DNA of 64,000 nt from Roseiflexus sp. (GCA_017743475.1 JAGHYV010000005.1:1-64000); one strand, 5' to 3'. Counted from the stretch's first letter, positions 1-12,524 are shown. The notes: generated from the sequence alone by a model not told the origin. Made by a program: numbers and translations.

Positions 1-469
1 TGTGGACATCCACATTGTTCTCGATCAGCCACTGGGTCAGATCACTTAACTTTGATCGAGCGTCGCGCCGCACCTGCGGCGACACAATCAGCCAGCAATG
101 GCGCAGCGCGCGCCCCGGTTGATGCCATTCGAGAATCGCCCGCTCCGGTCCGTGGGGACGCAACCCGACCGGCAACACCAGCGCGCTGTGCGGCTCGATG
201 CGCTCCGCCGGGATCACGTCAATGGTCTGCATCTTCCTGGCGTTCCCTTCGATCACCCTGCGCACGCCCCAGACGAGGAAGGGAAAGATCAGCGCCGAAC
301 CGACGATGATTCCGATCAATGTGGTCGGTTGCGCGCCAAACATCAGCAGCACCAGTTCGTAGAGTGCGTTGCCGAGCATAGACAGCACCAGCGACGCGAC
401 AATGAACAGCGCTGGTGCGCGCGAGTCGAGAAACGGCGCCAGAAAGTCACCCAAACGACCCAATTTCAC
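1..469 (-). CDS. Two-TM membrane protein with CARF-like domain (C-terminus beyond window)
   Basis: An open frame starts at GTG 469 behind GGAGG (475-479) and runs off the window edge after 156 codons. Residues about 19-44 and 50-68 are hydrophobic and look like two membrane helices. From about residue 95 a soluble part begins with a strand-loop of the kind ALVLPVGLRP, then AIL.WHQPGRAL and a WLIVSP strand, which resembles the first Rossmann-like unit of CARF domains. The start lies 23 nt inside the preceding WYL regulator gene, so translational coupling is likely. Membrane-anchored CARF proteins are known accessories of type III CRISPR systems (Cam1 is one example), where they respond to cyclic oligoadenylate. 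The CARF call here is inference from pattern and context; the rest of the protein is not visible. Confidence 0.62.
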   Translation of the reverse strand, partial: MKLGRLGDFLAPFLDSRAPALFIVASLVLSMLGNALYELVLLMFGAQPTTLIGIIVGSALIFPFLVWGVRRVIEGNARKMQTIDVIPAERIEPHSALVLPVGLRPHGPERAILEWHQPGRALRHCWLIVSPQVRRDARSKLSDLTQWLIENNVDVH

Positions 470-1505
470 GTTGTCCTCCAGGCTGATCAGCATCGGTTGC
501 GTAGAGCGCAACCATACGTTGTGCGCTTTCGCGCATCATATCCACCAGTTGCGCCGGTTCGATCACGCGACAATGCTCACGATAGCGCATCAATATCTGG
601 TGAGCGCGCCACAGATCGTTCGTGACTGCTGTCACCTCCGCCGAACCATCGTCAGCGTAGGTGATCTCGCTTTTCGGGAACCAGTGCGCCACATCGCGCG
701 TGCGCGCCACCGCTGGCGCCAGCCAGTAGCGCAACGCATACGTCGGTCGCTGGTAGTCGTGGCGCAGCGCGTGCGGCAGGCGTCGCACACTGTCGGGAAC
801 AATGCGATCAAGGCGGTAGAGCACAAATCGCTTGCAAAGCGCCGGAACATCGCTCTGGAGGCAGAACGCATCCAGGTAGGTGTGTCCCTCGCGATAGACG
901 ATTTCGAGCGGGGCGACCCGATGGTGCAGCGCAGCGCCATCGGGAGTGTGCGGCGAGCGGTAGTCGAACTCGATTTCGCACTTCCTGATCACTCCTTTCA
1001 ACAGATTCATCATCCTATCGACGCCACGCGCTGGCGCACGTGGACGATCAACCCGCGGCGATGCGGTCATTTCACGCAACTGATTGCGACGTTTTTCCGG
1101 CATGAGAAGCGTTATGCGTTCCAGGAAGGTGCGGATCTGCCCGGCAAGCGGAAGATCACTCTCGCTATACGCATCGATCAGGAACGCCACTGCATCGATC
1201 TCCTCGTCTGGCAGGTCGAGCACCGTCAGGTCTCCCGGAGAAACTAGCACATATGTACCATTTCGCTCACGCCGAATATCGCAGTTATACTCCCGACGTA
1301 GCGCAGCAATGTCGTGACGCAGCGCCGCTGCCGCATCGGGCGGATAGATCCCATCAGGCACATCAGGAAATGCGGCATTGGCGTCAGCGATTAGAACACG
1401 CCCCGTTGCCGATCCTCGAATGAGACGTTGCACCAGAAAAAGACGCCGCCGATAGATGAGTTGAGAACTGCGCTTGTTACCGCCGCGTCGAGAGCGTTCG
1501 ACCAT
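447..1505 (-). CDS. WYL-domain transcriptional regulator with N-terminal HTH
   Basis: This 352-residue protein has a basic, winged-helix-like N-terminus (residues 10-95), a middle segment and a WYL domain (about 160-240) with a central TYLDAFC strand where many relatives have WYL. WYL proteins are usually DNA-binding regulators that sense nucleotide-like or nucleic acid ligands, and several are tied to CRISPR and other defence loci. The start at 1505 is preferred over an upstream ATG at 1547 because AAGGAGG sits at ideal distance before it. It begins 10 nt after the stop of the CARF-HEPN gene and overlaps the start of the downstream membrane protein gene, so the three form one operon. It probably controls this operon; a palindrome in the promoter region is a candidate site. 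Confidence 0.82.
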   Translation of the reverse strand: MVERSRRGGNKRSSQLIYRRRLFLVQRLIRGSATGRVLIADANAAFPDVPDGIYPPDAAAALRHDIAALRREYNCDIRRERNGTYVLVSPGDLTVLDLPDEEIDAVAFLIDAYSESDLPLAGQIRTFLERITLLMPEKRRNQLREMTASPRVDRPRAPARGVDRMMNLLKGVIRKCEIEFDYRSPHTPDGAALHHRVAPLEIVYREGHTYLDAFCLQSDVPALCKRFVLYRLDRIVPDSVRRLPHALRHDYQRPTYALRYWLAPAVARTRDVAHWFPKSEITYADDGSAEVTAVTNDLWRAHQILMRYREHCRVIEPAQLVDMMRESAQRMVALYATDADQPGGQREIGSFG

Positions 1506-1515
1506 GATCACCTCC

Positions 1516-2913
1516 TTATGCTGCAAGTGAAACGAACTGATGGACACGCTCCCACTCCTGGCGCGACCTGCCGATCAGCGCAAAGAAGCGATCCAGCAAT
1601 TCCTCAACAACATCGGCGAACTGTTCGTACTCCGAGAACGAAATCGGGCGGAACCCGTGTGCCAGGATACTGGTATTGCGCACATACGAGCGCTGACGAA
1701 TATTGCCGATATTCCATCCGCGCACCAGCGGATCGTCGAGCGCCTGGAGCAGCATATAGCCATCGAATAGTGTAATCGAGCGGTCTGGCGTGGGAAGATC
1801 GTACTGCCTGCGGAACCCTTGAGCACGCTGCACCTGCCGGTAGCGATCATCGAGGTCAGGGACGTGCCGTAAGGCAGCATCAAACAATGGTTCTGCCGTC
1901 CAGACACCATAGGTCGCCAGGCGATGCTGCGACAGCAATTCCAGACAGCGGTAGCGCATTAGCGCTGCAACATCGTAGCGTTCCTGAGCTGCACGGCGCA
2001 GTGCGGCGCTGTGAAGCGAACCGAGCAACGCCAGCGCCTGATTCAGATCGCGTAGTGCCGTCAGCGCATCGGCTGGCGGAGTCCTGCGCTGGGTCAGACG
2101 TTGGTTGATGGCAGTTAACTGCGCCAGCGTCTCGCGCTGCGCCTGCAACACACCCCGCACCGGTCGCAGATCGGTGGGTAGATCAGCGCACGCCAGCACG
2201 CGGTCGAGCGCCTCGCCCGCTCGATGGGGCACAAACCCGTCCCATGCGAGATACGCTGCCGCGAGATCAGCATAGATCGCATAATCGGGATTATCCGGCA
2301 CCCGCTGCGCCAGATCGCGGAAGATCTTCTCAGCGCCGGCGTAATCATGGTTGTTATGTAAACGACGTGCCTCAGCTGCCTCCAGGTCGCCGAAGACAGT
2401 GTACGGGTCTTCCGGTGTCGCGAGGCGCTGCGTGCCGGGCACCGGACGACCATCGGCATAATCGCTATCGACATAGACTGCTGTCAGACGCAGCACATGT
2501 GCTGCTTTTGCCAGCCCGACGGTCATTGTCGATTTACCGCCAGTCAGATCGACGGCAATCTCGTGGCGCTCTAGGTCGCGCCAGCGATCAAGAACCGTCC
2601 GCAACCCAGTGTAGACGCGCAGCACACTAGAATAATCGCCATCCGGACAGAACCAGTCATCGGGTGAACAGCGCAGCGGCGCCTGATCGGCAACCTGCGC
2701 GAGTCGTTGACGCACCTCGTCCAACTTTGGACGGGATTGATCGGTGAGCAAAAACGCGACCCGCTCAGGGTTGAGACCGGCGATCAGGAGCGCTGGCGTA
2801 TCTGCCTGAAGCGTACCGACCAGCACCAGACCGCGAAATGCATACCCGCCCACGGTGGCGCGAAAGGACGCGAAAATATCAGGAAAAGGGATCCGCTCAT
2901 CAGACGCCGTCAT
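1516..2913 (-). CDS. CARF-HEPN protein, CRISPR-associated TIGR02710-like family
   Basis: The 465-residue product has an N-terminal CARF-type Rossmann region (to about residue 165) with the ligand-site motif VDLTGGKSTM at 121-130, a helical middle and a C-terminal HEPN-type segment with RNTSILAH at 412-419, an R-x6-H motif typical of HEPN ribonucleases. This domain order matches the CRISPR-associated TIGR02710/Cas02710 group and parallels Csm6/Csx1, where cyclic oligoadenylate binding to CARF activates RNA cutting by HEPN. The ATG at 2913 follows GGGAGGTG; a GTG at 2931 is less likely. It is the first gene of the operon with the WYL regulator and the membrane protein. No cas genes or arrays are seen in the window, so its activating partner may lie upstream of position 1 or elsewhere. 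RNase activity is inferred from family knowledge. Confidence 0.85.
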   Translation of the reverse strand: MTASDERIPFPDIFASFRATVGGYAFRGLVLVGTLQADTPALLIAGLNPERVAFLLTDQSRPKLDEVRQRLAQVADQAPLRCSPDDWFCPDGDYSSVLRVYTGLRTVLDRWRDLERHEIAVDLTGGKSTMTVGLAKAAHVLRLTAVYVDSDYADGRPVPGTQRLATPEDPYTVFGDLEAAEARRLHNNHDYAGAEKIFRDLAQRVPDNPDYAIYADLAAAYLAWDGFVPHRAGEALDRVLACADLPTDLRPVRGVLQAQRETLAQLTAINQRLTQRRTPPADALTALRDLNQALALLGSLHSAALRRAAQERYDVAALMRYRCLELLSQHRLATYGVWTAEPLFDAALRHVPDLDDRYRQVQRAQGFRRQYDLPTPDRSITLFDGYMLLQALDDPLVRGWNIGNIRQRSYVRNTSILAHGFRPISFSEYEQFADVVEELLDRFFALIGRSRQEWERVHQFVSLAA

Positions 2914-2951
2914 CACCACACCTCCCACCACACTGGATGCGTCTGCTGAAG

Positions 2952-2985
2952 AGTATACATCCAGAAGCCGTCACAAACGTGACGG
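2952..2985 (-). promoter_or_regulatory. Palindrome and -10-like box upstream of CARF-HEPN operon
   Basis: A perfect 7-bp inverted repeat with 4-nt spacer, CCGTCAC-AAAC-GTGACGG, lies at 2968-2985. On the minus strand a TATACT hexamer (2952-2957) follows it, in the position of a -10 box about 40 nt before the CARF-HEPN start. The palindrome would overlap the -35 region, where a repressor such as the WYL protein could bind. It has no U-tract, so it is a weak terminator candidate for the lipoprotein gene at 3071. Confidence 0.45.
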
Positions 2986-3070
2986 ACAGCAGGAAGCAGC
3001 GATGCACCATCGCAAAGGACGCCGACGTCGCGCGTGCACGAGAGAAGCACTCTGCTTGTTCTGGGCACGC

Positions 3071-4621
3071 TCAAGAACCCTGCGCGGGCAGCGGGTTAAA
3101 ATAGGTATAGACCAGTCGCGAAAACGCAGCAATCGTGGACATCATAACCCGGTCGGGTACCGGTGCATCGCCCGCAGCAATAGGACGATATACATAAATT
3201 GCTACCACATAGTCGCCGCCAGGGGAACGCACAATTCCTACATCTGCCTGCATATCACTGATCCAACCGCTTTTGTGCTCAACTCTTACCCCTTCAGGAA
3301 TACCGGCAACCATACGTCGTTTGTCACCATTTTCAGCAAGGCGATTGAGCATCTCGAGGCATCGTTCTGGCGTGAGGGTATCACCGAACTTCTCCAGCAG
3401 CATTCCTTCACCGCGCGCGCAGCGATCAACTTCGACGTATAGGCTCGCCATTTCACGTGGCGTAGTGCGCAGGTAACGTCCCGCATTAGTGTACGGCGGC
3501 TTTCCGCCGCGGGCAGGACCCGCTCTCACCTTCAGTTTCCTCAGTTTGATATAGTCCTGCGCTTCGAACGGTACATACTGAAACGTTTCGGGGAAGCCAA
3601 GATCGGCGAGCAGCGCGCTCATTCGCTCAGCGCCGACGATGGCATCCTCGGTGCCGACGCCGCCGATCGACGCGGCAAGGAGTGCATTCGCTGCCAGATT
3701 GTCGCTCTCGACGATCATGTTGCGCAATGCGGTTTGCTGCTTTTCAGTGAAATTGGGGAGGTTGATGTAGGCGTTGAGCATGATTGGCATTTTGATCGTG
3801 CTGGCGGCGGCAAACGCAGTATCGGGATTGAGTGCAGCAACGACTTCGTCCTGCGCCAGATCGTAGACATACACACCGATCACCCCGCGCCAGGCATCAG
3901 CCATCTCCTGAAGCTGTTCTTGGAGCATCTGTGGGTCTGGACGTGCTGCGATTCCGCGTCGCGGGGTCAGCGTCAATGTCACACGCCGCGGCGCGCCGAC
4001 AGAGCGCAGGCGGTCGTCAATCTGCTGCATGGCGCTTTCGATATCGATGGCCAATCCGCCTTCCATGACAAAGCTGCGCGAAATCACAGTGACTCCGGTG
4101 ATAATCGAAAACTGCGTTGGAGTGCTCGCCTGTTCGTTTAGCGTTGTCAGCGCTTCGCGCAGTTTTGCTTTATCGTAGACCACCCGCAAGGGGATGCGCC
4201 TGCCAGCTGGCGCCGCGCGCGCAGCGTCGATCATCGCATCGAGATCCAGACGCATATCAATATCTTCAACACGCAGCAGAAGTTTCCGATCACCGGCGCG
4301 AATATCGAGCGGGCGTAGCAATGGTGCCAGGCGCATCGTCAATTCGCGCCGCGCCTCGGTGGGCGTCAGCCCGCCGACCTCGATACCTGCGATATAGACC
4401 CCCTCTGCCAGACGCGGCTCTGGCGTGGCGGTAGGCACAGGAGTTGGTGTGGGAAGCGGTGATGGAACTGGGATCGCCGCGGCGTCCGGCGTTGGCAACG
4501 CTACAGATGATGGGGTCACCGATTGCACTGCTGGTGTCCTGCATGCAACCAGCAGCATCAGTCCGATGAAAAGATACCACCTGCGCAGCAACGCGGCGTG
4601 CGCTCGTGTCGTGTCGTTCAT
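3071..4621 (-). CDS. Lipoprotein with class A beta-lactamase/transpeptidase-like fold
   Basis: The 516-residue product starts with a lipoprotein signal (LLVAC, Cys27) and a Pro/Thr-rich linker to about residue 70. Residues 75-165 carry a segment like the PG_binding_4 domain of VanW proteins (G.EVGGLT..EA). The C-terminal half has the serine penicillin-recognising motifs STIK (Ser274, Lys277), SDN (306-308) and KSG (450-452). The omega-loop ExxLN motif of true class A beta-lactamases, with the deacylating Glu, was not found. That argues for a cell-wall role or an uncharacterised hydrolase rather than proven beta-lactamase activity. It should be anchored outside the cytoplasmic membrane. It is transcribed alone, divergently from the GalT-like gene. 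Confidence 0.85.
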   Translation of the reverse strand: MNDTTRAHAALLRRWYLFIGLMLLVACRTPAVQSVTPSSVALPTPDAAAIPVPSPLPTPTPVPTATPEPRLAEGVYIAGIEVGGLTPTEARRELTMRLAPLLRPLDIRAGDRKLLLRVEDIDMRLDLDAMIDAARAAPAGRRIPLRVVYDKAKLREALTTLNEQASTPTQFSIITGVTVISRSFVMEGGLAIDIESAMQQIDDRLRSVGAPRRVTLTLTPRRGIAARPDPQMLQEQLQEMADAWRGVIGVYVYDLAQDEVVAALNPDTAFAAASTIKMPIMLNAYINLPNFTEKQQTALRNMIVESDNLAANALLAASIGGVGTEDAIVGAERMSALLADLGFPETFQYVPFEAQDYIKLRKLKVRAGPARGGKPPYTNAGRYLRTTPREMASLYVEVDRCARGEGMLLEKFGDTLTPERCLEMLNRLAENGDKRRMVAGIPEGVRVEHKSGWISDMQADVGIVRSPGGDYVVAIYVYRPIAAGDAPVPDRVMMSTIAAFSRLVYTYFNPLPAQGS

Positions 4622-4693
4622 GAACGAAATGCCTTGATGAAGCGTCCCGTCTTAGACAGGGTACCTGAAAGGTAGAACCTGCTATCTGAATCC

Positions 4694-4722
4694 TTCGCTG
4701 CTGTTTGCGTCAGTGGTATACT
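4694..4722 (+). promoter_or_regulatory. Putative promoter of the GalT-like gene
   Basis: TATACT at 4717-4722 lies 17 bp after TTCGCT (4694-4699, three of six consensus positions). The position supports the ATG at 4756 rather than an upstream TTG at 4705 as translation start. Confidence 0.35.
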
Positions 4723-4755
4723 ACCACATATTCACGCGATGACGTGCGCAACTGT

Positions 4756-5844
4756 ATGATTACGACCCTTCCTGAACGGATCGCAACACTGTCACCAGCG
4801 GATCGTGCGCGGTGCGAACGTCTCTTTTTCGTCCAGCGTGTCGAAGGGCAGGTGATAATACCGCCTGCAATGGAGTCTTGGGTAAACGCCAGTTTTGGCG
4901 CGATCGACCGGGTGCGTCACCAGACGATCATACGGGTTGTCAACCGTTTCACCCTCGAAGGAACGCTCTTCAACCCGCTGCGCGCCCTGCGACCAGCAGG
5001 AGCAGTGGCGAGTGACGAGGAACTGCAGGCCTGGATTACTGCCGAGTTGAACCACCTCAACTTCTTCGCGCACCCACTCGATGCTACCAGCGCCGACGTG
5101 TTTGGACGCATCCGTGGTCGCTTCTGTATTAGCGCGTCGAACATCGCCAAATACGATGGCTGGCACGGGCTGGTAATCTTCGATGAACCGCATCCCCTCC
5201 GATTCAACCGCGATCAGTTCGCCGATTACCTGGATGTTGCGCTGCGCTGGCTCGAAATGGCTCACCGACACGATCCCCAGGCTATCTACCCGATGATCAC
5301 CTGGAACTGCCTGCCGCGCAGCGGCGCCACCATTGCCCATGGACACATGCAAATGTCACTAGCGCGCGAGATGCACTACACCCGTCCGGAACTCTGGCGG
5401 CGCGCCGCGCTTCAGTACGGTGGCGTCGAACGCTACTTCGACGATCTGGTGATGACCCATGCCAGCCTGGAACTGCTGATTGCCGATACGCCCGATGATC
5501 AGATGTTCGTCCATCTGACACCACTGCGCAACCGTGAAGTCATTGCCCTGCTATCATACTCATCATCGTCGCCCTCCCTCGTCGAACGTCTGACAGCACT
5601 GATCTACCCAACGCTGCGAACAATGATCGACTGCCAGGGCGTGCGCGCTTTCAACGTTGGAATTGCGCTACCACCCTTGACCGATGCGACCGGGGCGTGG
5701 AGTCGCATGCCAGTCATTGCGCGCCTCGCCGACCGTGGACCGGCGCTGAGTGTTCGTAATGACTGGGGAGCGATGGAACTGTTCGCTACTGGCTGCGTCA
5801 CGGTTGATCCGTTCGAGGTGGCGACCACGCTACGCCGAACATAA
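4756..5844 (+). CDS. GalT-like nucleotidylyltransferase (HIT superfamily)
   Basis: This protein of about 362 residues resembles galactose-1-phosphate uridylyltransferase and related HIT-fold enzymes: an N-terminal region with FNPLRALRP and NFFAHPLDAT, then FCISASNIAKYDGWHGLVIF and the histidine-rich active-site motif AHGHMQ. GalT proper has HPHxQ and HIT hydrolases HxHxH, so the nucleophile is probably the second His of HGH. Known members move nucleoside monophosphates between sugar-1-phosphates or ADP-type substrates; the substrate here cannot be read from sequence. No galactose genes are adjacent. The ATG at 4756 has no strong ribosome site, but the promoter position favours it. Confidence 0.65.
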   Translation: MITTLPERIATLSPADRARCERLFFVQRVEGQVIIPPAMESWVNASFGAIDRVRHQTIIRVVNRFTLEGTLFNPLRALRPAGAVASDEELQAWITAELNHLNFFAHPLDATSADVFGRIRGRFCISASNIAKYDGWHGLVIFDEPHPLRFNRDQFADYLDVALRWLEMAHRHDPQAIYPMITWNCLPRSGATIAHGHMQMSLAREMHYTRPELWRRAALQYGGVERYFDDLVMTHASLELLIADTPDDQMFVHLTPLRNREVIALLSYSSSSPSLVERLTALIYPTLRTMIDCQGVRAFNVGIALPPLTDATGAWSRMPVIARLADRGPALSVRNDWGAMELFATGCVTVDPFEVATTLRRT

Positions 5845-5855
5845 GATCCCAACAC

Positions 5856-7097
5856 TCACGCCTCCGGTCGCGTGCCGAGCGTTACGTCAAGCGACAGTTG
5901 ATCACCATCGCGCAGCACCTCGAGCGTCACGACATCGCCCGGCTTGTACTCTAGCAACAACGCGCGCAGCGATTGTCCTGGGCCGATTGGCTTACCGTTG
6001 ACCTTTGTCACAATGTCACCTCTGCGCAGACCCGCGCGTGCTGCCGGTCCACCCGGCTCGACGGACGCGATCAATGCACCAGCATTGACCGGCAGATTAT
6101 TATCGAGCGCCAGCATTGCATCGATAGTACCGAAGCGCACGCCAAGGAAAGGATACACAACCTTGCCGTTCGCAATCAACTGCTCACTCACCCGCTTTGC
6201 AATCGCACTTGGCACTGCAAAGCCAAGCCCTTCAGCAGGCGCTGCCCCTAACCCGCCGCCGCGCACGACAAGGGTGTTGATGCCAACCACTTCACCCCGC
6301 AGATTGATCAACGGACCGCCACTGTTTCCGCTATTGATCGCCGCGTCAGTCTGGATCAACCCTTCGGGCGCATTGCCGCCAAGTGAACGGTTCAGCGCAC
6401 TCACCACGCCGACGGTTACGGTGTTGCGGAAATCACCCAGCGGGCTACCGATCGCAATCACTGTTTCGCCGGGTTGCAACGCATCGGAGTCGCCCAGCAC
6501 TGCAACTCCCGGCACCGGACCATCAACCTTGACGACTGCCAGGTCCATCAACGGATCAGCGCCGATCAGTTTCGCGTCGCGGCGTGAACCATCATAGAAG
6601 ATCACCGAAAGCGAACGGTACCCCTCGATCACATGATTGTTTGTAAGAATGTAGCCATCGGCGCTAATGATGACCCCTGAACCGCTCCCACGACGCACCG
6701 AACCACCTGGCTGATCCGGAAACGGAAACGGCAGATCGCCAAGCAACGGTGATGCTCGCGCGCCAGATGCCAACGTATTGACAATTGTGACAACTGCTGG
6801 CGACACCTTCTGGACAGCCTCGACCACCGGCGAGGCGGATGCTCGCGCAACCGGAGCAATGGTTGGCGCTGGTGCAATCGTTGGTGCTGGTGCCGTCGCA
6901 TTAGTGGGAGCGACCGTGGGCGCTGGCATCGATACCGGAACGGTCGCAGGACTCGTCGGCTGCGCTGCGATACGCTCTATCTGCTGCTGCGTCACGTACC
7001 AGGCAACGCTGCCGCCTGCTAGCGCGCCAATCAGCGCACCGATCAGCAGCGTTGCAACTGCGCCAAAGATCAGAGCAAATTTTGTTCCACGCTCCAT
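5856..7097 (-). CDS. HtrA/DegP-family serine protease, membrane-anchored, with PDZ domain
   Basis: The 413-residue protein has one N-terminal membrane helix (about 8-36), a Pro/Ala/Thr linker (45-95), a trypsin-like S1C protease domain with catalytic His155 (TNNHVIEG), Asp185 (DLAVVKVD) and Ser259 (NSGNSGGPL), and a C-terminal PDZ domain (about 320-405, ending in the MNGK-like V-NGKPIGPG loop). HtrA proteases degrade or refold damaged envelope proteins. The start follows AGGAGG. The gene converges on the GalT-like gene with an 11-nt gap and is divergent from the hybrid kinase downstream; whether the kinase controls it is unknown. Confidence 0.93.
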   Translation of the reverse strand: MERGTKFALIFGAVATLLIGALIGALAGGSVAWYVTQQQIERIAAQPTSPATVPVSMPAPTVAPTNATAPAPTIAPAPTIAPVARASASPVVEAVQKVSPAVVTIVNTLASGARASPLLGDLPFPFPDQPGGSVRRGSGSGVIISADGYILTNNHVIEGYRSLSVIFYDGSRRDAKLIGADPLMDLAVVKVDGPVPGVAVLGDSDALQPGETVIAIGSPLGDFRNTVTVGVVSALNRSLGGNAPEGLIQTDAAINSGNSGGPLINLRGEVVGINTLVVRGGGLGAAPAEGLGFAVPSAIAKRVSEQLIANGKVVYPFLGVRFGTIDAMLALDNNLPVNAGALIASVEPGGPAARAGLRRGDIVTKVNGKPIGPGQSLRALLLEYKPGDVVTLEVLRDGDQLSLDVTLGTRPEA

Positions 7098-7217
7098 AGA
7101 GCGACCTCCTATGCTATGCTTTAGCGTAAAGTATGCGCTCTCGATATAAACACAATGTTAGACCAGCATAAGAAACTGCTTAGTCTTGATCACCGGTAGT
7201 AAAAGCGTCGTTGCAAG

Positions 7218-7246
7218 TTGGCGTAGAACTGCGTATGCAGTATAAT
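7218..7246 (+). promoter_or_regulatory. Promoter of the hybrid kinase gene
   Basis: TTGGCG (7218-7223), 17 bp, then TATAAT (7241-7246), 55 nt before the ATG at 7302. The match to the sigma70 consensus is good. Confidence 0.6.
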
Positions 7247-7301
7247 GTTCAAGAGTATACATTGCAGGCCGCCTCCGCGATACGTGATCGATGGTTGACC
7301 G

Positions 7302-9761
7302 ATGGAAGAAATTCTGATCATCGATGACAGCAAGCAAATCTGTTCTCTGCTTGCTGACCATGTATTGCCGGAGCTTGGTTATGCTTCAACGATTGCGTAC
7401 ACCGGACGTCAGGGGCTGAACTGCCTTCGTCAACGCACTCCTGATCTCATTCTCCTCGATCTTCAACTTCCGGACATCAGCGGCCTCGACCTGTTGCGCC
7501 TGATTGCCCAGGAAGGGTATGACGTGCCCGTTATCCTTATGACAGCGCACGGATCGGAAGCGATCGCAGTGGAAGCGTTTCGTCTGGGAGCGCGCAACTA
7601 CCTGATCAAGCCATTCAGCGAGACCGAAGCGCAGGCAGCGATCAATCAGGCGCTGCGCGAACGGCGTCTCAAGCGTGAAAAAGAGCAACTCACCCGTAAC
7701 TTGCGGCAGCGCGTGCAGGAACTGACCGTCCTCTACTCGATCGGCAAATCGGTTAGTTCACTGCTTGATCTCGAAGAATTGCTGGTGCGTATCGTCGAAG
7801 CTGGCGTTTACATCACGCGCGCCGAGGAGGGTTTTCTGCTGCTGCGCGATCCGCATGCCAACGAACTCTACCTGCGCGCAGCGAAGAATCTTGGTGAACA
7901 GCGTGCCCAAAAAATGCGCATGCCAATTGACGATAGCCTGGCCGGTCAGGTGATTCGTACCGGAAGACCGATCCGCCTGGATAGAGCTGTCGCTGGCGCA
8001 CAGTTGAAAGTCATCACCGGCTTCCTGGTGCGCGCAATTCTTCAGGTGCCGCTGATGGTTGGCAATCAGGTGATCGGCGTTCTCGCTGTCGATAACCAGC
8101 AATCGGAACGCACCTTCAGCGATAATGATCAATACCTGCTGTCCGCGCTTGCCGATTATGCCGCGATTGCGATCGAGAACGCACGCCTCTATCAGCAGGT
8201 CAAACAGAGCGAAGCACGCTACCGTGACTTGTTCGACAATGCCAATGACCTGATCTTTACCCTCGACCGACAGTTCAACCTGCGCAGCATCAACAAAGTC
8301 GCCCCGGCTATCACCGGGTATGCTCAAAACGATCTGATCGGTCGTCCGTTGCGCGAGGTGAGCTTCAGCGATACCTGGACCTATGCAGAGCGTCTGTTCA
8401 ACGATGTGCTGCGGGGGCAGAGTGTTCCGCCGTTTGAGTTGCAGATCCGGCGCCACGATGAAGAGATTGCCGTACTTGAAGTCAGCGCGCGGTTGATCCG
8501 CGATGGCGATGGTGTTGAAGCGATCCACTGCATTGCCCGCGATCTGACCGAGCGCCGCCGTCTCGAGGAACAACTTATCAGATCGGAGAAACTCTCCGCC
8601 ATCGGTCAACTGGTTGCTGGCGTCGCACACGAGGTCAACAATCCGCTGACCAGTATCAGCGGTTATACTCAACTGATGTTGCGCGATACCAGCCTGCCGC
8701 CAGCGATCCGCGAGGATCTGCAGCACATCAACACTCAGGCAGAACGCGCGGCGCGTATCGTGCAGAACCTCTTGATGTTTGCCCGCGAACATAAGCCGCA
8801 GCGTGTGCCCGTTGATATCAACCAGGTGCTGCAAAGTACCCTCACCCTGCGCGCTTATCAACTGCGTGTCGATAACATTACGGTCGTCACCGATTTCGAC
8901 CCCAACCTGCCACAAACGGTGGCAGACCCGCATCAGTTGCAGCAGGTCTTCCTTAACCTGATCAACAATGCGCACCAGGCAATGATCGAGCGCGGCAGTA
9001 AGGGAACACTCACGCTGCGTACTTCAGTTGAGCGACGCATCAGCGAGGGCGGTCGCGAGGAAACCTGCATCCGTGTCGCCGTGAGCGATACTGGCATTGG
9101 TATTCCGCCACGCAACCTGAATCGGATCTTCGATCCGTTCTTTACAACCAAGCCGATCGGACAGGGAACCGGATTAGGATTGTCGATCTGCTTCGGCATT
9201 GTTCAGGAGCATCACGGTCGCATCTGGGCGGAAAGCGAGGTTGGCGTCGGAACGACGATGTACGTTGAACTGCCGCTCAACGATATCCATGCGCTACCGA
9301 CGACAACGTCCATTGACTCAGAACCCGCGTCTACCGAAGAAGAACCTCTTCCCGAAGAGTCGAACGGCGGTGCTGCGATTCTGGTGGTTGACGATGAAGA
9401 GGCGGTCAGCGCATTACTGGCGCGGCTGCTCACCGATCTCGGTCATCGCCCGACTACGGTTGCCAGCGGTGAAGCTGCGCTCGCTGCAATTGCGCGCCAA
9501 TCGTTCGACCTGATTTTGACCGATATCAAAATGCCCGGTATGACCGGCTTCGAACTATACCAGCATATCAGGGATCATAACCCACACCTGGCACAGCGTA
9601 TCATCTTCATCACGGGCGACACAATCAGCGCATCGACGCAGGCGCGCCTCGCGCAGACCGGCAATCCCTACATCGCCAAACCGTTTTCTATTGAACGTCT
9701 TGAAGCGCTGGTGAAGGCATGCCTTGCGCCCCAGTCGGCGGATCATCTACCTGCGCCCTGA
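7302..9761 (+). CDS. Hybrid signalling protein: receiver-GAF-PAS-histidine kinase-receiver
   Basis: In 819 residues the domains in order are a receiver (1-120, phospho-acceptor Asp53 in LLDLQLPD), a GAF domain (about 150-300), a PAS domain (about 305-425), a HisKA helix with phospho-His in [16 protein letters not shown] (about 440-455), an ATPase domain with DTGIGIPP and GTGLGLSI, and a second receiver (about 690-810, Asp in LTDIKMPG). No membrane segments are visible, so it is cytoplasmic and may sense a small ligand or redox state through GAF/PAS. An acidic Ser/Glu linker separates the kinase and last receiver. No output regulator is encoded next to it. The stop lies upstream of the IF2B-like gene with a 146-nt gap. 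Confidence 0.93.
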
Positions 9762-9907
9762 ATGGCGCCGATCAACAGTGCACGATACTCCTGCCCTGTC
9801 ATTTCCGCCGCTCTGTTTCACCCGCTGCACACAAACGATTCAAGTGTGCGATAATGAAACATGGAAGACACACTATATCCAGTCGTACTATAGAGGGGAT
9901 CGAGGTC

Positions 9908-10834
9908 GTGGAGCCAGTTGCAGCAATAGCCGTCGATAACCGTCAGGGCGCCGCTCAGATTGCCGAACAGGCCGCCGATCTGATGATCCGTCGTGCGGAA
10001 GCCAGCCGAGCATCGTCGCCACAGGAATTCCGCCGCGACCTGCGCGACTTTGGATGGTCGCTCATCCACGCACAACCAGTGATGGCGCCGCTGGTCAATC
10101 TGGTTAATCGAGTTCTGTGGGCGATTGAAGAGCCGCAGTCGCTGCAAGACTTGATCCGCGCCGTTGTGGAGGTTGCGGAAGGTTTCAAGCATCAGTTGCG
10201 CCAGCACGCGCTGCACGTCGCTGAGGGTGCGTTGACACTGATTTCGGATGGTATTACCATCGTTACCCTGTCGTACAGTACTACTGTGCAACACGCGCTG
10301 CGTCATGCACAACGTGCAGGGCGCCGCTTCCGCGTCGTGTGCGGCGAGTCGCGCCCGATCCTCGAAGGTCGTCAGACGGCAGCAATCCTGGCGGAGTACG
10401 GGATTCCTACCCAACTGGTGATCGACGCTGAATTGCCAGCCCATATCGCACAGGCGCAACTGGTGATCGTGGGCGCCGATATGCTCAGTACCCAGGGATT
10501 GGTCAACAAAGTCGGCACTTACGGTATGGCGCTGGCGGCGCACGCAAAGGGGGTCGGGTTCTACGCGCTCTGCGGTAGCGAGAAGTTCGTGCTGCCCGGT
10601 TTTCGTCCCCTTGAACAACTCGATCGCCCCCGCAGCGAGATCTGGGCGGAAGCACCGCCCAACGTGCATATTCGCAACCGCTATTTCGATGTGACACCGC
10701 TCGAACTGCTGTCGGGCATTGTAACTGAACGCGGGGTCTTGCCAGTTGCTGCCATCGAAGCATGGCTCGCGTCGACGCATCTCCACCCGGCGCTGGCGCA
10801 CGAACAGCAGGGCCAGATGGTAGAAACACCTTGA
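9908..10834 (+). CDS. IF2B-like / ribose-1,5-bisphosphate isomerase-like protein
   Basis: This protein of about 308 residues belongs to the family of eIF2B alpha/beta/delta, MtnA and archaeal ribose-1,5-bisphosphate isomerase. The C-terminal Rossmann half shows VVCGESRPILEGR (phosphosugar loop with Cys), LVIVGADML with the conserved Asp, and NKVGTYGMALAAHAKGVGFYALCGSEKF. Bacteria lack eIF2B, so it is likely to isomerise a sugar phosphate or to act in nucleoside salvage. GTG at 9908 follows AGAGGGG (9892-9898). An earlier ATG at 9854 is possible but overlaps a GATAAT -10-like box. It stands alone between the kinase and envelope genes. Confidence 0.72.
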   Translation: MEPVAAIAVDNRQGAAQIAEQAADLMIRRAEASRASSPQEFRRDLRDFGWSLIHAQPVMAPLVNLVNRVLWAIEEPQSLQDLIRAVVEVAEGFKHQLRQHALHVAEGALTLISDGITIVTLSYSTTVQHALRHAQRAGRRFRVVCGESRPILEGRQTAAILAEYGIPTQLVIDAELPAHIAQAQLVIVGADMLSTQGLVNKVGTYGMALAAHAKGVGFYALCGSEKFVLPGFRPLEQLDRPRSEIWAEAPPNVHIRNRYFDVTPLELLSGIVTERGVLPVAAIEAWLASTHLHPALAHEQQGQMVETP

Positions 10835-10859
10835 TTTAGAACGAGTGTTCGACTATAAT
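10831..10859 (+). promoter_or_regulatory. Promoter of the 10972-13138 envelope operon
   Basis: TTGATT (10831-10836), exactly 17 bp, then a perfect TATAAT (10854-10859). It overlaps the stop codon of the preceding gene and gives a leader of about 105 nt before the ATG at 10972. Confidence 0.7.
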
Positions 10860-10971
10860 GTCCTCACCTCAATCACATAACGAACGCGGAGATCAATCGC
10901 CTGCGCTTAACCTGGCGTCAATTGCAGGAGTCAGAATCCCGCCATTGCTTGAACAGGTGAGGAGGTCTATT

Positions 10972-11499
10972 ATGGCTGTCACGAGTCGGGCTATTCGCGC
11001 GGGGCGTCGCGCCTGGAGCCGCAACCACCGGATGCAGCGCATTGCATACGCCGCACTCTACGGAACGGCGCTGATACTTGGCGCCCTGGCAATCTACGCT
11101 CTGATCGGTGCCGCACTTGAGCGGATCACGACAATGATCGACGATATACGCTACGGCTATCCGCGCACGATGCACGTTCAAGCGTTCGTCGGTCACGGCG
11201 AAGATGCTGGTCAACCGACGCATTTGATTGCAATCAATCTTAACCGGCAGGTGGTTGTGCTGGAACTGCCCGGCGGTGATCCGTCGCAGGTGCGCTCTAT
11301 CATCGGTCCGTACCTGTTTGGCGCCAATGAGCATCTGACGCCGGTCACCATTAGTATTCAGGATGTCGATGGTGATGCGCTGCCCGACCTGCTGCTCGAT
11401 ATTCGTCGTGAGCGGATTGTCTATCTGAACCGCGACGGTTTTTTCCGCCTGCCGACGCCTGAAGAACAGGCGCGCCTTACAAAAACCTTTCGTCCATGA
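10972..11499 (+). CDS. Single-pass membrane protein with FG-GAP-like calcium loop, unknown function
   Basis: The 175-residue product has a basic N-terminus, one membrane helix (about residues 30-55) and an outside domain. Near the end, IQDVDGDALPDLLLDI resembles the D-x-D-G-D-x-x-P-D loop of FG-GAP/VCBS calcium-binding blades. The ATG at 10972 is chosen because of the strong GAGGAGG at 10959-10965; an ATG at 10858 sits inside the promoter. Its end overlaps the next start by 4 nt (ATGA), so it is coupled to the glucosaminidase-like gene. I do not recognise a specific family. Confidence 0.7.
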   Translation: MAVTSRAIRAGRRAWSRNHRMQRIAYAALYGTALILGALAIYALIGAALERITTMIDDIRYGYPRTMHVQAFVGHGEDAGQPTHLIAINLNRQVVVLELPGGDPSQVRSIIGPYLFGANEHLTPVTISIQDVDGDALPDLLLDIRRERIVYLNRDGFFRLPTPEEQARLTKTFRP

Positions 11500-12524
11500 A
11501 CAATATTGATGCAGAGTCTGACCTTTGTGCTGATTGCCGTTCGCCGCACTGCAAGCGGCGATCAGTGCAGCATAACGACCTTCGCCTGCCGGAACGCCGC
11601 CCGAATCCGCTGGCGAGGTTTCGCGATCCGTTCGATGACCATTTGCCGGACATCGGGCAACGCCGCCTTAGAGAACGTCGCGTCGATGTTCAGGAACGTC
11701 TGCCATCTATCCCGTCGTTTGTGGCACCGCTCGACGACGCACTGCTTGTACCACTGCCCGACCGCGACTCCGAACTTGAACGCGATCTGTTGCTGGCAGA
11801 GTTGATTGCAGCGCGACCGCTCTCCCGAACTCTCTTGCAAGCAGGGGGACGAGTAGGTGGGACACGGCGAACCGCCCGATCGTGGGATTTCCACTGGCTA
11901 CTCATCGCCGTCTGCCTGGTCAGTCTCGTCGTCCTGTTCCTGTTCTGGCGCGAAACCGGGACGCCGCGGATCTGCCTGGCGCCTGGATGCTTAGGACGCC
12001 TCCAGACGACCCTGACGAACGTGTTCACCAATCATCCGCCAGCACCCGAAGGTCAGCACTCGGTACTTGGTCCGCCCAGCATTTCAGCCCAGCAGATCGA
12101 CCGCATCCTCGCTGAGTGGCAATCACCAGCAGCTGGTACTGGCTCAACCTGGGTCGAACTCGGCGTCAAGTATGGCATTGATCCGGCATACGCCCTGGCG
12201 TTTTTCATCCATGAGTCGGGTGCGGGAACTGCCCCCGGATGGGCCGGGCGCAAACCTGATGGTAGCACAACGCACAACATCGGGAATATCATCTGCGCCG
12301 GGTATAAGAGGTGTTACGGGCGATTCCGCGACTATGCGAGTTGGGAGGAAGGGATCGCAGACTGGTATCGCCTGATTGCCGTCGAGTATGTGGAGTGGCG
12401 CGGCATTCACACTGTTGAGGAGATCGTCCCGATTTATGCGCCAGCGGTTGAAAATAATGTTCCAGTATACATCGATACTGTCAACCGTCTGGTTGCCGAA
12501 TGGCGCGCATCGCGAGCACGATAA
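11496..12524 (+). CDS. Membrane-anchored glucosaminidase/lysozyme-like protein
   Basis: The 342-residue protein has a long charged cytoplasmic N-terminus with CxxC...C near residues 11-18, one membrane helix (about 131-150) and an extracellular C-terminal domain. The latter shows YGIDPAYALAFFIHESGAGT (with Glu of the HES motif as probable catalytic acid), HNIGNIICAGY and FRDYASWEEGIADWYRLI, the pattern of glucosaminidase (GH73/lysozyme-like) domains that cut peptidoglycan glycan strands. It is coupled to the membrane protein upstream (ATGA) and the M23 gene downstream (TAATG), which suggests joint action on the wall. The N-terminal Cys cluster could bind a metal; that is only a guess. Confidence 0.78.
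   Translation: MNNIDAESDLCADCRSPHCKRRSVQHNDLRLPERRPNPLARFRDPFDDHLPDIGQRRLRERRVDVQERLPSIPSFVAPLDDALLVPLPDRDSELERDLLLAELIAARPLSRTLLQAGGRVGGTRRTARSWDFHWLLIAVCLVSLVVLFLFWRETGTPRICLAPGCLGRLQTTLTNVFTNHPPAPEGQHSVLGPPSISAQQIDRILAEWQSPAAGTGSTWVELGVKYGIDPAYALAFFIHESGAGTAPGWAGRKPDGSTTHNIGNIICAGYKRCYGRFRDYASWEEGIADWYRLIAVEYVEWRGIHTVEEIVPIYAPAVENNVPVYIDTVNRLVAEWRASRAR

Follow-up and report, generated by a model that had tools for sequence, protein, structure and literature searches.

A probable type III CRISPR ancillary effector operon in Roseiflexus, with a promoter element shared among CRISPR operons

Three tightly packed minus-strand genes of a draft Roseiflexus assembly, heading from position 2913 of the analysed window towards base 1, are best explained as a type III CRISPR ancillary effector operon, with two effectors driven by cyclic oligoadenylate (cA), Csx15 as an off-switch and control by a WYL protein, an explanation to which, as a whole, a probability of about 0.8 is given. 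All three genes named in the original prediction are present on the minus strand, and its proposal of two cyclic-oligonucleotide outputs under a local regulator stands as the best reading, from the domains, the fold and the type III linkage in relatives. Domains, fold, gene order, intact catalytic motifs and the genome-wide distribution of a promoter element were computed directly. Every protein family involved is already catalogued, the effectors being members of known families; the part that looks new is the promoter element, not the proteins.

In the proposed mechanism, Cas10, encoded elsewhere in the genome, would sense invader RNA and synthesise cyclic oligoadenylate, most likely cA4. Binding of this signal to the CARF domain of the first gene product would lead its HEPN domain to cut RNA, and binding to the CARF domain of the third would cause paired membrane helices to open a pore and the cell to depolarise, until Csx15 ended the response by sequestering or slowly degrading cA4. 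Expression would be controlled by the wHTH-WYL-WCX protein, probably an activator on TTTGTGACG located ∼24–32 bp upstream of the transcription start, where it would aid the housekeeping polymerase on promoters lacking a −35 box, in the manner of PafBC. One regulator could then set alarm, memory and interference together, because the same element precedes the RNase HI-RT-Cas1 operon and, in sister genomes, cas10 and cas8b.

The operon bears on two questions, how self-endangering type III effectors are controlled and how alarm, memory and interference might be co-regulated. The co-occurrence of such effectors has already been described in the literature, and the accessible part of Makarova 2014 (PMC4012209) notes that WYL, csx19 and Csx15 are often encoded near CARF genes; that part describes neither a four-gene set in constant order nor a promoter element in common. 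Literature searches, with incomplete coverage and thus as weak evidence of novelty, found no description of the module in Roseiflexus and none of a promoter element tying a WYL protein to CRISPR. No target is known for the WYL proteins long seen encoded next to CARF genes, and a 26-nt element marking CRISPR promoters across several genera would provide a direct handle on that target; if the proposal is true, this would be, as far as the literature searched shows, the first CRISPR regulon under a WYL-type regulator for which an operator is defined. The compact set of two effectors and an off-switch, in a mostly thermophilic lineage, should also be useful for structural work.

Gene order at the contig edge

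The window, 64 kb in length, is the start of contig C55 of the source assembly, and the third gene is open at window base 1 because the contig begins there (Table 1). In the nearest genus-mate, G009, assembled as a single 5.8-Mb contig, the operon reads CARF-HEPN, WYL, membrane CARF protein (TM-CARF, 263 aa) and Csx15 (125 aa); some way beyond these come genes for a small membrane protein, RNase HI, reverse transcriptase (RT) and Cas1, with a 59-repeat CRISPR array ∼5 kb past Cas1. Csx15 is thus the fourth gene of the same operon in relatives, and the source genome has its own copy just across a contig gap, the end of Csx15 lying at the tip of contig C44 ahead of RNase HI, RT and Cas1 in the order seen in G009; the gap between C55 and C44 is ∼300 nt, as estimated from synteny with G009 and not from reads. 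The 37-nt repeat of the G009 array also occurs in the source genome, at the end of contig C84 and on C87.

No CRISPR array was found within the window. The earlier remark that no cas genes were in view is accurate for the window; as biology it is mostly an effect of the contig edge, since the contig ends here and the module is separated from cas10 in Roseiflexus. Purifying selection is evident in comparison with G009 for both the CARF-HEPN gene (dN/dS 0.039/0.304) and the WYL gene (dN/dS 0.031/0.214). The CARF-HEPN gene likely starts at the ATG at 2913, a GTG at 2931 being possible, and the third gene is assigned a GTG start at 469 by homology, with an ATG at 493 also possible.

Table 1. Features of the operon, its promoter and related sites (window coordinates unless a locus or contig is named)
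Feature	Position	Strand	Basis
CARF-HEPN ribonuclease (putative), TIGR02710 / Csx1-Csm6 type	1516..2913	-	TIGR02710, Pfam, PADLOC matches
CARF ligand-site motif VDLTGGKSTM	2524..2553	-	sequence; related D[LV]TGG motifs in several relatives
HEPN catalytic motif RNTSILAH (R-X6-H)	1657..1680	-	RNxS[IL]LAH in all full-length CARF-HEPN compared
wHTH-WYL-WCX transcription regulator	447..1505	-	WYL 2.6e-9, WCX 1.1e-12; model
Membrane CARF protein (CARF8 CARF_TM), cut by contig end	1..469	-	PADLOC; G009 copy; model
Predicted membrane helix 1, conserved LGNALYE stretch	338..415	-	helix 19-44 of L105 homologue model
Predicted membrane helix 2	233..328	-	helix 48-79 of L105 homologue model
16-bp palindrome CGTCAC-GTTT-GTGACG (CGTCACGTTTGTGACG) ahead of operon	2969..2984	-	exact-match search, conservation
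-10-like hexamer TATACT, 11 nt downstream of TTTGTGACG	2952..2957	-	spacing conserved
Acquisition operon	L023 (G000:C44) 417-3756; L015 3392-7017; L103 1587-6463		
Other element sites	G011:C7:5173, G012:C293:5189, G009:C1:3779808, G009:C1:1693066, G000:C168:37494		

The acquisition operon across the gap is itself conserved, encoding the small membrane protein, RNase HI (Pfam accession: PF13456), RT (Pfam accession: PF00078) and Cas1, and the placement of RNase HI next to RT and Cas1 suggests that spacers are made from RNA. In most relatives, an extra protein of 425–492 aa with no Pfam family lies between RNase HI and RT; it is missing from the source genome and G009.

Upstream of the operon, a gene of the Beta-lactamase2 family (window 3071–4621) keeps its place in genus-mates and has no relation to CRISPR. 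Dense short tandem repeats occupy the spaces between genes around the G009 operon (L015 4452–4950, 7133–7378 and 13043–13386), and may be the reason why Roseiflexus drafts break here.

The CARF-HEPN ribonuclease

The first gene product exceeds the curated cut-off of TIGR02710 by a wide interval (4.3e-77; 259.6 bits vs 83.9) and contains both of the motifs from which a CARF-HEPN protein had been predicted, VDLTGGKSTM and RNTSILAH. It further matches the Csm6 HEPN family of Pfam (Cas_Cas02710, 9.5e-25) and the PADLOC profile CARF1 CARF_HEPN (1.9e-160), and its best solved relative is Thermus thermophilus Csm6 (7e-15), whose listed structures include a complex with cA4. In its combination of a CARF domain with a HEPN domain bearing R-X6-H, within the R-X4-6-H pattern of the group, the protein resembles the Csx1/Csm6 group and is a putative cyclic-oligoadenylate-activated RNase.

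The membrane CARF protein

A match to the PADLOC profile CARF8 CARF_TM (PDLC01948) is obtained with the 170 visible residues of the third gene product (1.7e-75) and with the full-length genus-mate copy (1.1e-139). The window copy is partly without the CARF core. In an AlphaFold2 model of the L105 homologue, built from 26 aligned sequences (pLDDT 82.7), helices at residues 19–44 and 48–79 are followed by a CARF domain, in agreement with the predicted pattern of two membrane helices and then a CARF-like part. The second hydrophobic stretch is present in nearly all full-length TM-CARF relatives. The CARF fold is thus found in the full protein, the best fold match being cA4-bound Cam1 (VIA Z 20.3 over 148 residues, rmsd 2.3), which is also the best match by Foldseek (1.2e-10) and ranks first by sequence profile (1.6e-7). 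The suggestion that this might be a new member of the TM-CARF class is borne out as to membership; the class itself is already known, since PADLOC holds CARF8 CARF_TM and Cam1 has been studied experimentally. No difference from the architecture of the PADLOC CARF8 CARF_TM / CARF_2M group was found, and the protein belongs there.

Cam1 of Nitrosococcus halophilus (PMC10808066), found in type III loci, likewise has an N-terminal membrane part followed by CARF, but consists of 206 residues with one 24-residue helix and a conserved D17, whereas the family described here has two helices, ∼247 residues and conserved N34, Y37 and E/D38 in helix 1 (23, 25 and 25 of the 26 TM-CARF sequences, respectively). 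In place of Cam1 D17, N34 and E/D38 are conserved, in helices that were not aligned residue by residue. Cap1 (PMC12642688) shares the arrangement of two membrane helices ahead of a sensing domain, in that case a CARF-like domain with DUF4579, and forms a cA4-opened tetrameric pore; DUF4579 was absent from the Pfam matches of the full-length TM-CARF protein.

Both Cam1 and the two-helix Cap1 depolarise membranes, and the polar N34, Y37 and E/D38 of helix 1 are candidates for lining a pore, whose formation we infer along with the identity of the signal. It is unlikely that the protein instead serves as a membrane-anchored CARF that sequesters the signal or recruits another effector without forming a pore; such a role would suit a protein that has no enzyme domain and whose membrane insertion and oligomer state are at most predicted, yet it fits poorly with the depolarisation by Cam1 and Cap1 and with the conserved polar residues of helix 1.

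Csx15 and the likely signal

The fourth gene product matches the Csx15 family profile (1.4e-41), with conserved S/H, H and R residues in the alignment. The conserved histidine, the EIHGR motif and the C-terminal arginine, together with the family match, liken it to the Csx15 proteins of PMC13148439, both of which were cA4-specific. It is accordingly placed in a cA4 sponge/ring-nuclease family, with the predicted function of sequestering or slowly degrading cA4. The likeliest signal is cA4, because the Csx15 proteins studied act on it, Cam1 binds it and Csm6 is the closest solved CARF-HEPN protein. The G009 Csx15 (L015 9222–9596) has a further match (7e-19) in the C-terminal part of PDB 9ylu ‘CbCash’, in which a Csx15-like domain lies inside a longer protein.

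Linkage to type III CRISPR

TM-CARF relatives were identified in 20 of the 400 genomes searched in this phylum, one very weak match outside the order (G215) being excluded from conclusions, and in 32 GTDB contigs. These contigs are mostly of Chloroflexales, with a few from Anaerolineae and cyanobacteria; some of the lowest-scoring matches (e.g. those of Desulfovibrio) are CARF-HEPN proteins matching by their CARF part. In other Chloroflexales genera, the module comes immediately after type III cas genes, and the genomes with this order include G005, G394, G253, G119 and G372. Among non-redundant TM-CARF loci with enough flank, type III cas genes are present at 11 of 24 and Cas1 at 13 of 24; Csx15 is nearby at 20 of 31 non-redundant loci, a WYL gene adjoins at 11 of 23 and CARF-HEPN lies just upstream at 10 of 23. 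Within family f1, cas10 occurs in every module-bearing genome that is at least 90% complete. Cas10 was detected with PADLOC PDLC00919, since TIGR02578 gave weak Cas10 matches only. The linked cas set includes Csx21, annotated ‘Type III-D associated’ (3e-62), which suggests subtype III-D; csx19 is a further candidate marker.

In Roseiflexus, the operon adjoins RNase HI-RT-Cas1 and is distant from cas10, by at least 1.5 Mb in G009, so that the cognate Cas10 is a presumed one; G009 has three competing Cas10 loci, and the source genome encodes Cas10 with an intact GGDD at two places, on C71, where the gene runs off the contig, and on C142. The homologous cas10 set of Roseiflexus has no recognised CARF effector beside it, and module and complex have therefore been separated. 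This distance is what would favour a free-standing module outside CRISPR that responds to cyclic nucleotides from a different pathway, or a remnant left as an orphan; such a status is highly improbable given that other genera have the module directly linked to type III cas genes, and given the cas10 genes of the same genome, the shared promoter element and the purifying selection. An operon free of CRISPR links was rejected on the type III cas linkage, the genome's own cas10 and the shared element, and the link to type III genes for which the original prediction had looked to relatives is found there, where the set is joined to cas10.

Several further loci were encountered in these searches. 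On G000:C142 (L021 8488–17660), a second type III-like locus of the source genome encodes a 489-aa Cas10 (GGDD), fused RAMP proteins and a different CARF-HEPN (CARF_m10), and the third type III locus of G009 (G009:C1, L139 15972–18895) carries consecutive genes for three different CARF proteins, among them CARF-PDDEXK. The module loci L114 and L115 have identical annotated gene coordinates and derive from a Chloroflexaceae MAG and a MAG titled Chromatiaceae, the latter probably reflecting a binning error.

A promoter element shared by CRISPR operons

In the region upstream of the operon, only CGTCACGTTTGTGACG and TATACT are well conserved in Roseiflexus, six genomes keeping the palindrome while the flanks diverge. 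The element consists of the 16-bp palindrome, an 11-nt spacer and a −10 hexamer, TTTGTGACG-N11-TATACT. The exact palindrome occurs at two places only in the source assembly, this promoter and that of the RNase HI-RT-Cas1 operon on C44, and at the same two promoters only in the complete G009; outside the palindrome, the effector and RT-Cas1 promoters of one genome share about one quarter to two fifths of positions. The downstream half-site, at the same distance from the −10, precedes type III cas10 in G009, G011, G012 and G013, and type I-B cas8b in G009. Chloroflexus has ATATGTGAAAAC followed by TAT[CG]CT, at the same spacing, before the same RNase HI operon.

Across 13 genomes, TTTGTGACG-N11-TAnnnT gave 37 genome-wide matches vs 7 for the reversed control, and by our count at least 24 of the 37 precede CRISPR operons; two further matches in G394 precede genes that we take to be Cas10- and Cas3-like. 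At loci fetched regardless of the motif, TAnnnT lies exactly 11 nt from TTTGTGACG in 20 of 27 contexts, and no rearranged 9-mer of TTTGTGACG had TAnnnT at that spacing. The palindrome alone, with a free spacer, is not specific, its counts being near the control in several genomes outside Roseiflexus, unlike the half-site with a −10 at 11 nt, which is specific. The element is nearly confined to CRISPR promoters, and its sharing by the CRISPR operons of the lineage suggests that the CRISPR immune response as a whole is under one switch. A simple sigma-70 scan near the operon start gave nothing beyond chance, and an Rfam search of window 1–12000 gave no match. A CRP-type site was considered and rejected, as the half-sites point the other way.

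The WYL regulator

The predicted WYL regulator was recovered as the second gene, with WYL and WCX domains both over cut-off. Its winged helix comes from the structural model only (pLDDT 79, model residues 13–88), for which DriD, BrxR, PafBC and CapW are fold neighbours by VIA; PafC was the sole match to PDB sequences. The protein shares the wHTH-WYL-WCX architecture with PafBC (PMC11804915) and DriD, but the regulons of these two concern DNA damage, not CRISPR, and PafBC is a heterodimer; PafBC is activated by ssDNA and acts on housekeeping-sigma promoters via a −26 motif.

WYL homologues of some kind occur in every genome tested. In all nine genomes tested that have a close module WYL (>470 bits; in G011 and G012 the gene is divided between contig ends) the element is present at CRISPR loci, a match that is not independent because the genomes are related, and four genomes with only distant WYL homologues have no element at CRISPR loci. 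Chloroflexus, whose module WYL is ∼44% identical, shows only the divergent form of the element, though it carries the module WYL. Given the likeness to PafBC and this co-presence, no candidate for reading the element is better than the WYL protein, and activation is more likely than repression; we infer both points, and the protein is probably a PafBC-like activator. The wider proposal, that this activator runs a Chloroflexales CRISPR regulon of effectors, RT-Cas1, type III and type I-B operons through TTTGTGACG-N11-TATACT, its WYL domain possibly bound by nucleic-acid fragments or an alarm nucleotide, is evenly balanced between being right and wrong.

Some doubt attaches to the identity of the reader, since most genomes encode further WYL homologues and the element also lies upstream of a few genes without an obvious CRISPR role; a WYL paralogue, a CRP/FNR-like protein or an alternative sigma factor might read it, leaving the module WYL to sense something else or to regulate itself. 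Such an assignment is possible but less probable, as the close module WYL tracks the element in the nine related genomes and not in the four with distant homologues, the −10 belongs to the ordinary sigma type, and the half-sites of the palindrome are arranged otherwise than for CRP.

WYL proteins of the BrxR and CapW type are repressors that sit over a promoter and are released by a ligand. Both are among the fold neighbours of the model, and at the effector and acquisition promoters the palindrome is perfect and extends over the −35 region, so that repression of this kind may be entertained tentatively; at the cas10 and cas8b promoters, however, nothing of the palindrome is kept beyond the downstream half-site, still 11 nt from the −10, and the lack of an evident −35 box is a better fit for an activator.

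The element is also found before a large protein gene next to cas1, before a gene near the G009 array and before one further gene, which is without an obvious CRISPR role and is common to G009 and the source genome.
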